Translations under genes and position numbers: made by a program
Shown: piece after piece, positions 14,634 to 17,160 of the stretch
Position numbering within the stretch: the stretch's first letter is position 1
Layout: every line of letters starts with the position of its first letter
NCBI GenBank assembly: GCA_021773245.1
Contig: JAJFKK010000127.1
Span: 1 to 38,900 of the forward strand
Direction: 5' to 3'
DNA from: Gammaproteobacteria bacterium
GTDB taxonomy: Bacteria; Pseudomonadota; Gammaproteobacteria; Eutrophobiales; Eutrophobiaceae
Length of the DNA: 38,900 bases
The notes under the pieces: model-generated
The model's database searches: none
What the model saw: only the letters and a program-made list of their open reading frames with translations
Told to the model about the DNA's origin: nothing

Positions 14634-15098
14634 TTATTTTATCGGCAAAGCTAATTCCTTGAGAAAAAAAGCTGTTAAATCATAGCAACCATTTAATTCT
14701 ACTTCTTTATATTTGAACATGCCAGCTGCCTTGCCTCACTTACTCCGCGAATATAAGCAACTTATTTATGACTTAGAGTATTCAATAAAAACAAGCATAT
14801 TTCCTTATATGATGGTGTTATTACTCATCGGTTAAATTGTTTATTAATTGAATTATCGAATTTTTGTAATAACTCTCGGGATTCATTTTTTGATTCTTTT
14901 TATTTCTTCCCTATTTTTCTGTAATTCCAGCGACATTTCGTTCACTAAGAGCCGAGAATTTTTGGTTTCTCTGTGTAAACATAGTGAAATCGCTAAAGAA
15001 CTAAAAATGGCAATTATAAATACAACGCCTTCTATTAAAATGTATATTAATTCGGTTCCATCTCGAATATCTGCAAGGATATCTATTGCAGCTAAATC
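14634..15098 (-). pseudogene. Decayed LuxR/GerE-type membrane-anchored transcription regulator
   Basis: Read on the minus strand across frames, this gives about 155 residues of one family. That family has one N-terminal membrane helix, a coiled coil and a C-terminal LuxR-type helix-turn-helix. Frame 1 gives ILADIRDGTELIYILIEGVV, then a hydrophobic run and ELQKNREEIKRIK. An extra A in the poly-A tract (14886-14891) shifts to frame 2: NESRELLQKFDNSINKQFNR, then EICLFLL, LSHK and VAYIRGVSEA. A one-base loss near 14688-14692 shifts to frame 3: YKEVELNG, then DLTAFFLKELALPIK and TAA (14634-14636). Two in-frame stops also occur: TGA (14825-14827) where the family has Trp, and TAA (14762-14764) where Glu is expected in LSHKE. 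The usual Thr-Val before RQ seems lost, and TAG (15099-15101) precedes the first recognisable residue, so the start is gone. The plus-strand frame 14848-15102 is its shadow. Confidence 0.87.
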
Positions 15099-15101
15099 CT
15101 A

Positions 15102-15287
15102 ATAAAAACAAAAGCCGTTAGCAATATTACTCTGAAACGACTTCCAAACAACATTTCATTGCATTCTAACATATTGATTTAATTAGTTTTCACAAATGGC
15201 GGATGGTGATATTTCAAACTAGAGCGCATATTTATTAAACGTTATAAAAGTTGATTTAACTAAATTAAATAATATTGGCCTTTGAGT
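15102..15287. other. AT-rich spacer upstream of the cytochrome pair
   Basis: This stretch between the pseudogene and the b561 gene holds no convincing reading frame. It presumably contains the promoter of the cytochrome pair, but I found no -35/-10 pair good enough to call. TTGATT at 15251-15256 is followed by AT-rich sequence without a well-spaced TATAAT. Confidence 0.4.
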
Positions 15288-16031
15288 ATGACGACAAAAT
15301 TACAACGATACAAAGTTTGGGATTTAACAACAAGAATATTTCACTGGATTAATGCGGCATCTGTTTTGTCGCTAATAATAGTTGGTATTCTTATTTTAAA
15401 TACAAAGCATCTTGGTATTGAAGGAGAGGCTAAGGTTTTGCTAAAGATAATTCATGCCTACATAGGTTATATCTTCGTTATCAATCTTGGCTGGCGATTT
15501 ATATGGGCATTTATTGGTAACCATTATGCTAAATGGCGACAATTTCTGCCTACAGGAAATAACTACTTACATTCGTTAAAAACATACAGCAGAAATTTAT
15601 ATTCGGGTGTACGCCAACAATATTTAGGCCACAATCCGATTGCCAGATTAGTGATCAGCATCTTTTTTATACTACTGAGCATTCAGGCAACAACCGGACT
15701 TATCATTGCGGGTACTGATTTATATTACCCACCCTTTGGTAATTATTTTGCAGAATGGGTGACTGAAGGAAATCAAGACCTTTTAAATGAATTAAAACCG
15801 GGTGATAAAAGTCATGTCATTGAAAGCGCATATGAAGAAATGCGCATATTTAGAAAACCAATCATAACCATTCACGTGTACGGATTTTATACGATATGCG
15901 TTTTAATTCTTCTTCACATCATTGGTGTCATTGTGACAGAAGTTAAAGAAAAAAATGGACTAATTTCAGCAATGTTTACAGGTGAAAAAGTACTGGATGA
16001 ATCTCCTGTGGATGAAAAAAAACACCGCTAA
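15288..16031 (+). CDS. Cytochrome b561-family membrane protein
   Basis: A 247-residue inner-membrane diheme b-type cytochrome, the kind that exchanges electrons between quinones and a periplasmic redox partner. Four candidate heme-ligand histidines lie in or beside hydrophobic segments: H19 (RIFHW), H56 (IIHAY), H196 (TIHVYGF) and H210 (LLHIIG). Membrane helices are expected near 23-39, 56-77, 120-141 and 195-217. The loop 85-120 and the 145-190 stretch are probably outside the bilayer. I chose ATG 15288; TTG at 15282 in the same frame is possible, and no good Shine-Dalgarno decides it. The next gene starts 16 bases later, so the two probably form an operon in which this protein feeds or drains the cytochrome c. 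Confidence 0.85.
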   Translation: MTTKLQRYKVWDLTTRIFHWINAASVLSLIIVGILILNTKHLGIEGEAKVLLKIIHAYIGYIFVINLGWRFIWAFIGNHYAKWRQFLPTGNNYLHSLKTYSRNLYSGVRQQYLGHNPIARLVISIFFILLSIQATTGLIIAGTDLYYPPFGNYFAEWVTEGNQDLLNELKPGDKSHVIESAYEEMRIFRKPIITIHVYGFYTICVLILLHIIGVIVTEVKEKNGLISAMFTGEKVLDESPVDEKKHR

Positions 16032-16047
16032 TTTTAAAGGAAAAAAC

Positions 16048-17160
16048 ATGAACATAAGTGTAAAGGTTATTCATATTATTTTTTACTTGATGATGGGATT
16101 CAATATAAGTGCAGTACAGGCTGCAGAAAAAGTGTTAGCCAAACAAATTTATCAAAATAACTGCGCGTCATGTCATGGTGCTGCAGGCAAACCTGATCCA
16201 GAAAACCCAATGTTTAAACAATTAGGAATATTGCCAGCCAATTTTACAGACTCACTATTTAGTAGTCGTGAACCAGCAAAAGACTGGTTTTTAGTCGTTA
16301 AAGAAGGTGGTGCTGCTAAAGGCTTTTCAAACATGATGCCTGCCTTTAAAGAGGTATTGAGCGACATTCAAATAAAGAAAGTTATCAGTTATATAAAAAC
16401 ACTAGCGGGTAAGCATGAATATCCATCCGGAGATATGAATTTTATATTACCCATACGAACCAAAAAGGCTTTTCCAGAAGATGAAGTAGTATGGAAACTT
16501 CGATTCCAAGATGATGCTAACAATAGTAATCGCGATCAAATTCGCAACGTAATTGAAATTGAAAAACGTATTTTTAAACGTACCCAATTGTCGCTTGAAT
16601 TAAGCCATAAAATTGATGATGGTGTTGATAATGGGCATGGTAATTTTGACCAGATTGAACCTGGTATAAAACACGTTATCTATGAGAACCCATCCCAACA
16701 AGTCATAACATCTGTTGGAGCATTGTTGGCAATAAAAACAGAGGAAAGTAATTCATCAAATGAGTTTATTCCATATATTGCAGCTGCTAAGCGCCTAACA
16801 GACACACTAACAGTTCAAGGTACAGCACGTTCAACTTTACCATTAGAAAAATTTAGTGATGGAAACGTAGAACTATCTAGTGTGATCCATTGGTCGCCAA
16901 GTCCTTGGCCTCGTAGTTTGCATCCCGGGATGGAAGTGGTTGCATCATTTCCAATAGACAGAGGTACAGGCATAACTCGCAAATCTTTTTCGCAATTAAG
17001 CTTGATACCTCAAGCGCAAATCAGTCTTAATAAACGAGGTAATATATTGCTTAATTTTGGCACAGAAATACCTTTAAACGATACCAATCGCTATGACTAT
17101 CGCGGATATGTTTATCTAGTATGGGATTTTGCTGATGGTGGATTATTAGATGGTTGGTGA
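16048..17160 (+). CDS. Secreted monoheme cytochrome c with beta-rich, barrel-like C-terminal domain
   Basis: A 370-residue protein starting at ATG 16048 behind AAAGG; a longer frame from 15982 overlaps the b561 gene and has no support. Residues 1-25 look like a signal peptide, with likely cleavage after VQA. Residues 28-121 form a class I cytochrome c with heme motif CASCH (C39, C42, H43) and a probable axial methionine in SNMMPAF (96 or 97). Residues 130-370 show short alternating polar/hydrophobic stretches with turns rich in Asn, Asp and Gly, such as GNILLNFGTEIPL and YRGYVYLVWDF, and the final residue is Trp. This resembles an outer-membrane beta-barrel of perhaps 10-12 strands. The layout recalls the fused cytochrome-porin Cyc2 of iron oxidisers, but here the cytochrome domain is larger and the barrel smaller. 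Direct homology to Cyc2 is not claimed. Confidence 0.75.
   Translation: MNISVKVIHIIFYLMMGFNISAVQAAEKVLAKQIYQNNCASCHGAAGKPDPENPMFKQLGILPANFTDSLFSSREPAKDWFLVVKEGGAAKGFSNMMPAFKEVLSDIQIKKVISYIKTLAGKHEYPSGDMNFILPIRTKKAFPEDEVVWKLRFQDDANNSNRDQIRNVIEIEKRIFKRTQLSLELSHKIDDGVDNGHGNFDQIEPGIKHVIYENPSQQVITSVGALLAIKTEESNSSNEFIPYIAAAKRLTDTLTVQGTARSTLPLEKFSDGNVELSSVIHWSPSPWPRSLHPGMEVVASFPIDRGTGITRKSFSQLSLIPQAQISLNKRGNILLNFGTEIPLNDTNRYDYRGYVYLVWDFADGGLLDGW

Follow-up and report, generated by a model that had tools for sequence, protein, structure and literature searches.

A gene that joins a c-type cytochrome to a beta-rich region, placed directly downstream of a gene for a b561-type cytochrome, raises the question of what kind of barrel, if any, the cytochrome is fused to and what a single haem could do in such a place. 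The two genes lie in the window, by which we mean the whole stretch of 38,900 nucleotides analysed here (contig JAJFKK010000127.1 of a gammaproteobacterium of the Eutrophobiaceae). Fused cytochrome-porins are, to our knowledge, known mainly from Cyc2 and the similar Cyc572. Among the titles and beginnings of abstracts listed in our searches of the open-licence literature, we found no report of a c-type cytochrome fused to a COG4313/PF13557 channel or to a 12-stranded barrel. The window protein is very probably such a case, a single-haem c-type cytochrome fused N-terminally to a 12-stranded outer-membrane channel related to COG4313/PF13557. The design has been little studied, and it may let some bacteria exchange electrons with substances that reach the cell surface.

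The locus and its two genes

Both genes lie on the forward strand, adjacent and exactly where the preliminary description had placed them (Table 1), and each open reading frame runs from an ATG at its first position to a stop at its last. The fused gene starts 16 bp past the stop of the b561 gene, with AAAGGA ahead of its start. Five His residues of the b561 protein, a member of the prokaryotic cytochrome b561 family, are invariant among four relatives of the same subtype. The fused cytochrome is the sole match to itself in its own genome at E ≤ 0.001 (a 2.7-Mb assembly of 183 contigs).

Table 1. Features of the window locus (positions in the window) and cytochrome-free barrel proteins of other loci
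Feature	Position	Strand	Basis
b561-type inner-membrane cytochrome, 247 aa	15288..16031	+	PF01292, 89.7 bits (curated cut-off 30.1)
Cytochrome c fused to outer-membrane-type barrel, 370 aa	16048..17160	+	Open reading frame, Pfam, structure model
Signal peptide	16048..16119	+	Judged by eye; structure model begins after it
Class I cytochrome c domain	16120..16410	+	PF00034; solved cytochrome 7o38, Z 12.7
Conserved linker with KAFPEDE, proposed lumen plug	16411..16482	+	7/24 positions invariant in 40 rows
12-stranded barrel, modelled	16483..17127	+	AlphaFold2 model and fold matches
C-terminal tail past the last strand	17128..17157	+	6/12 positions invariant, mature residues 335 to 346
Decayed copy of membrane-anchored regulator gene	14637..15172	-	tblastn pieces in two frames; three-frame reading with stops
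Cytochrome-free barrel proteins	L103 6581-7399, L104 595-1350, L105 6281-7198		Found with the barrel profile of the fusion

Distribution of the fusion

The fusion family is uncommon in samples of wide taxonomic scope but occurs often in parts of the Gammaproteobacteria. The phylum sample contained one matching genome among 398, the window's own, and the class sample three among 369, again with the window's own included. Within the window's order (53 genomes, all of one family), 15 genomes match the window protein: five with a full-length protein (the window included), one with a remnant only, and nine over the cytochrome domain alone. The four full-length relatives of the same order are 65-77% identical to the window protein, and the protein of Wenzhouxiangella sp. 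XN79A, from a scan of named genomes that gave five loci, is 42% identical. In the family and the order of G382, G382 is the only match (1/3 each). In the order of G218, 13 of 147 genomes matched at first and 40 of 396 once the profile had been improved. Three of the latter (G986, G1027, and G1104) hold barrels without a cytochrome, which leaves 37 fusion genomes, four of them with fragments. The alignment of 40 diverse members on which the following analyses are based leaves out the fragments in G936, G996, G1118, and G1170, a second-copy fragment in G1178, the decayed remnant in G031, and the three barrel-only proteins.

Cytochrome domain, linker, and tail

A complete class I cytochrome c domain had been described from the sequence, and this assignment is sound: PF00034 matches residues 31-119 of the window protein (E 2.8e-11), the codons of CASCH (16162-16176) and Met-Pro (16336-16341) can be read directly in the sequence, and both Cys residues as well as the His, Met, and Pro of the haem domain are invariant across the 40 rows. 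The match of the N-terminal model domain to the solved cytochrome 7o38 extends over model residues 5-96.

The most conserved parts of the protein are the linker and the tail. Their shares of invariant positions exceed those of the cytochrome domain (10/97), the strands (6/138), and the loops (1/77). The tail carries the motif WDxxDGxxxGW. It had been suggested that the chain ends in Trp in the manner of a barrel. Trp is indeed the last residue, but the strand that comes last in the model stops at mature residue 336 of 346, 10 residues short of it, and the final Trp is therefore part of the conserved tail and not a strand end.

Structure of the C-terminal part

The mature window protein (346 aa) was modelled with AlphaFold2 from the alignment of 40 members. 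This model (pLDDT 90.3, pTM 0.86) supersedes an earlier one made from five close relatives (pLDDT 33.2) and consists of an N-terminal helical domain followed by 12 strands. Its best solved fold matches are outer-membrane barrels, namely FapF (Z 22.0), the COG4313 channel 4rl8 (Z 20.3, 3.2 Å over 219 residues), KdgM (Z 19.3), and NanC (Z 18.1). Foldseek places FapF, KdgM, and NanC within its first six rows, and lower Z scores were obtained for autotransporter and FadL-type barrels. The C-terminal part is thus modelled as an outer-membrane-type barrel, its closure being deduced from the fold matches. This is in agreement with the barrel anticipated in the preliminary description; a soluble beta-sandwich, which that description had named as the contrary outcome, does not appear in the model. 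The beta-rich character of the region, also claimed there, is borne out by the alternation of family-average hydrophobicity along the 12 modelled strands, which has a mean of 2.30 compared with 1.22 ± 0.26 after shuffling and is reached by none of 5000 within-strand shuffles, so that the beta-rich part is more than a product of chance. We do not take the FapF match as a clue to function.

Relation to the COG4313/PF13557 channels

The window protein itself has no match to PF13557 at E ≤ 1, but four of its relatives pass the cut-off of 22 bits (L056 with 31.0, L029 with 30.5, L098 with 25.2, and L061 with 22.3). L055 lies narrowly under the cut-off (20.0), and nine of the 40 members match PF13557 at E ≤ 0.1. 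Among the relatives scanned, PF13557 was absent in L026 and L028 (both at E ≤ 5) and in L059, L099, and L102. Two of the three cytochrome-free barrel proteins, L103 and L104, pass PF13557, and L105 does not. A profile comparison of the fusion with L103 and L104 gave a probability of 96.3% over 196 columns, in which the KAFPEDE segment of the fusion aligns with the segment before strand 1 of these two proteins. The barrel profile of the fusion found no relevant sequence among those of the PDB, and the relation to the channels therefore rests on Pfam, the profile comparison, and the fold.

The crystal structure of a COG4313 channel is described as having 12 strands and an N-terminal segment that occludes the lumen from the periplasmic side, and the mature proteins are given as 270-320 residues long (PMC4493636). 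The fusion resembles these channels, of which Pput2725 is an example, in its 12 strands, its fold match to 4rl8, and a similar segment before strand 1. It differs from them in the added N-terminal cytochrome c and in the conserved tail past the last strand, and the window protein lies below HMM detection. Considering that some relatives pass the PF13557 cut-off, we regard the barrel as a diverged relative of the COG4313/PF13557 channels. The window protein itself is not filed as a member, because it has no HMM match and its linker plus barrel, with 249 residues, is shorter than the range stated for these channels. We infer that the cytochrome c was added ahead of a COG4313-type N-terminal plug segment.

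Comparison with known cytochrome-porin systems

Like Cyc2, the window protein has a signal peptide and one N-terminal single-haem CXXCH cytochrome domain fused to an outer-membrane-type barrel. Cyc2 is described as having 16 predicted strands and, upstream of CXXCH, the motif AXPXFAR[QK][TY]; its haem is argued to sit at the periplasmic opening of a barrel in the usual porin orientation (PMC8406198). The fusion has a full class I cytochrome domain and 12 modelled strands rather than the 16 predicted for Cyc2, and the motif occurs in none of the 40 members. Since both the strand number and the motif differ, the window protein is not a Cyc2, as the preliminary description had already supposed.

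A relation to MtrB/PioB, which had also been put forward for comparison, found no support: neither is among the seven Pfam families matched by any of the 40 members at E ≤ 0.1, and we reject this identity. MtrAB and PioAB likewise combine an outer-membrane barrel with a c-type cytochrome. According to the account in PMC8406198, however, barrel and cytochrome are separate proteins there, with 26 strands and a decahaem cytochrome, whereas the fusion is a single chain with 12 strands and one haem.

The Geobacter ExtI-ExtKL cluster is described as encoding a porin-like protein, a five-haem cytochrome, and a b-type cytochrome (PMC5877670). It would be the nearest parallel for clade B of the fusion family (see below), a parallel that does not imply homology. 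The two share an outer-membrane barrel gene near a five-haem cytochrome gene, and the cluster has a b-type cytochrome. In contrast to the fusion, ExtI as described there carries no haem, the pentahaem protein of clade B matches ExtKL far below the cut-off, and b561 and pentahaem genes never occur together in the 40 fusion loci.

Two clades and the pentahaem partner

The tree of the 40 members consists of clade A with 25 members, the window protein among them, and clade B with 15, both branches being supported at 100/100 (midpoint root; long branches at L098, L026, and L102 are flagged by the program). In 14 of the 15 loci of clade B a multihaem cytochrome gene adjoins the fused gene, and L032 has none. 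Thirteen of these genes follow the fused gene in the same orientation and, with the longest open reading frame taken, abut or overlap its end; one is divergent. Five CXXCH motifs are present in 13 of the 14 partners; that of L102, cut by the contig end, shows three. The family (L055 5388-7013 and 13 further clade B loci) is about 540 aa long and has a conserved C-terminal part without haem motifs. In clade A the pentahaem gene was found in none of the stretches fetched. One clade A locus, L033, has a different open reading frame with three motifs 5.8 kb away.

The co-occurrence of the two genes extends to whole genomes. Among 396 genomes, 17 hold a pentahaem gene at E ≤ 1e-20, and 16 of these are fusion genomes, of which there are 37 in this set (one-sided Fisher p 1.6e-17, a value that is too small given the relatedness of the genomes). 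As counter-cases, G905 has a weaker pentahaem match and no fusion, and G978 a distant match on another contig. In G997 (L098 4662-7569) the pentahaem gene is divergent from the fused gene and not downstream of it, which suggests that the pairing survives rearrangement.

The pentahaem protein of L055, the only one scanned with Pfam, passes PF22113 (MtrC/MtrF) with 35.1 bits against a cut-off of 30. At E ≤ 0.01 the OmcA/MtrC model is matched by 10 of 10 members and ExtKL by 8 of 10, and L055 is far below the cut-offs of both; for ExtKL (NF040886) it reaches 37 bits compared with a curated cut-off of 250. By eye, no lipobox was seen in the N-termini of the pentahaem proteins.

The b561 neighbour and metal-related genes

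The preliminary description had paired the fused cytochrome with b561. The pairing holds in the window's order, where b561 is directly upstream in four of the five full-length loci and absent in G030, but it does not hold for the family, in which b561 is next door or near in only five of the 40 loci, all among the 25 of clade A; no b561 was found in the stretches fetched for the other 35. The upstream gene encodes a long b561 in the window, G042, and G051 (67-70% identity) and another subtype in G023 (29%). In G998, which belongs to another order, a long b561 (47%) is found upstream in the same orientation, separated from the fused gene by two genes. These intervening genes (L087 7838-10312) have no NCBIfam match at E ≤ 1e-5, and the one next to the cytochrome has no Pfam match at E ≤ 1e-4.

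The long b561 was found at E ≤ 1e-25 in 15 of the 80 chosen genomes. Five of these genomes also contain the fusion, which in G1010 is on a different contig, and 10 do not, G797 among the latter being a partial match. Conservation of the pair, which had been proposed as a check, is seen in a few loci but is offset by these 10 genomes, and the idea of a dedicated b561-cytochrome module is weakened by them.

In G042, G051, and G023, b561 is accompanied by an intact, divergently oriented gene whose product, a putative membrane-anchored regulator of the LuxR type, scores 20.9 bits for GerE, below the cut-off of 23.5; in the window this gene is decayed. In the same-genus genomes G044, G045, and G047 (L139, L140, and L141), which have no fusion, the regulator, likewise intact, and b561 precede an RND operon of outer-membrane efflux protein, adaptor, and RND pump. 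The RND set of G044 is confirmed by HMM, and its pump belongs to the CusA/CzcA family (1031.7 bits vs. 701). Further neighbours confirmed by HMM are VIT1 (G045), Nramp and a chromate transporter (G011), and a multicopper oxidase (G007), and a plastocyanin-type gene precedes the cassette in G023. By association, these neighbours hint at metal handling. Among the neighbours listed for clade A, most have no metal link when judged by eye.

Proposed working and alternative explanations

We suggest that the fused protein would be located in the outer membrane with its haem on the periplasmic side. The KAFPEDE linker may act as a lumen plug, as in the COG4313 channel, and keep the haem at the periplasmic end of the pore. 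Small solutes, which might be metal ions or redox-active compounds of another kind, could reach the haem by passing through the pore. In clade B the haem would exchange electrons with the pentahaem cytochrome; in the window's clade it might do so with the quinone pool via b561, with or without a soluble carrier in between. A single haem would not by itself take electrons across the outer membrane, and a barrel of 12 strands probably lacks the width to enclose the cytochrome domain; the haem is therefore more likely to sit at the periplasmic mouth. We infer the positions of plug and haem, the AlphaFold2 model being one of the protein without haem. The explanation as a whole, a haem placed where a small outer-membrane pore opens to the periplasm, working as Cyc2 does with a different barrel, appears to us evenly balanced between right and wrong. 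Redox chemistry at the mouth of the pore, taken by itself, falls just short of that balance, and a metal as the substrate is rather unlikely. We propose only tentatively that the family is a second, independently evolved class of cytochrome-porin, in which a COG4313-type channel with a class I cytochrome c before its plug forms a minimal redox port, with the pentahaem protein or b561 and the quinone pool as partners according to clade and with metal handling as its setting.

The main rival, which we consider somewhat unlikely, is that the barrel is a mere anchor that pins an ordinary periplasmic shuttle cytochrome c, nothing redox-active passing through the pore. There is only one haem, the PDB matches of the domain are common class I cytochromes (CcoP and c6, for example), and the partners differ between the clades, with 20 of the 25 clade A loci having no b561 in the stretch fetched. 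However, the barrel family includes uptake channels according to the description in PMC4493636, and a linker conserved above the level of the cytochrome domain would be needless in a plain tether. At the other extreme, the protein could be a true electron conduit, in which the haem together with aromatic residues, or a pentahaem protein inserted into the pore, passes electrons to the cell surface as MtrCAB does. The PF22113 match of the L055 pentahaem protein, and the weak OmcA/MtrC matches of all 10 aligned members, are in line with this reading. It is nevertheless highly improbable in our view, given one haem only, 12 strands compared with the 26 described for MtrB-type barrels, and pentahaem N-termini in which no lipobox was seen by eye.

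The regulator and b561 may form a mobile metal-stress unit that lies before varied genes, the b561 neighbour then being incidental and the fused cytochrome using other partners. The RND efflux operons that follow the same two genes in G044, G045, and G047, and the 10 of 15 genomes with the long b561 but no fusion, fit such a unit. Against it, gaps of -8 to 17 bp are kept in the window, G042, G051, and G023 despite differing flanking genes. In G023 this position is taken by another subtype, and G998, a member of another order, has the long subtype upstream of the fused gene in the same orientation. We consider an incidental neighbour improbable.

A further fusion, based on another family of channels with 12 strands in which the structure of a relative is known, would mean that fused cytochrome-porins arose more than once. 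The protein is small and tractable (346 aa when mature, one haem) for testing a haem at a pore mouth against outside substrates, and the clade B operon offers a defined two-protein system. The fusion family could also mark possible surface redox activity in uncultured Gammaproteobacteria.

Mobile elements and decayed copies

Three pattern matches were obtained from viral contigs, none of them confirmed as relatives, and the L029 barrel had no match on plasmids. Among the plasmid matches listed for the whole protein, coverage was at most 41% and lay mainly in the cytochrome domain. A match in G063 (E 2.6e-10) was rejected, its frame being broken by stops and a longer open reading frame running opposite. 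In G031 (L006 1501-1755, at the same place in L037) a decayed remnant of the fused gene has the C-terminal 85 residues recognisable, with a stop inside, and it adjoins a multicopper oxidase gene that is CopA-like at 410 bits, below the cut-off of 479.
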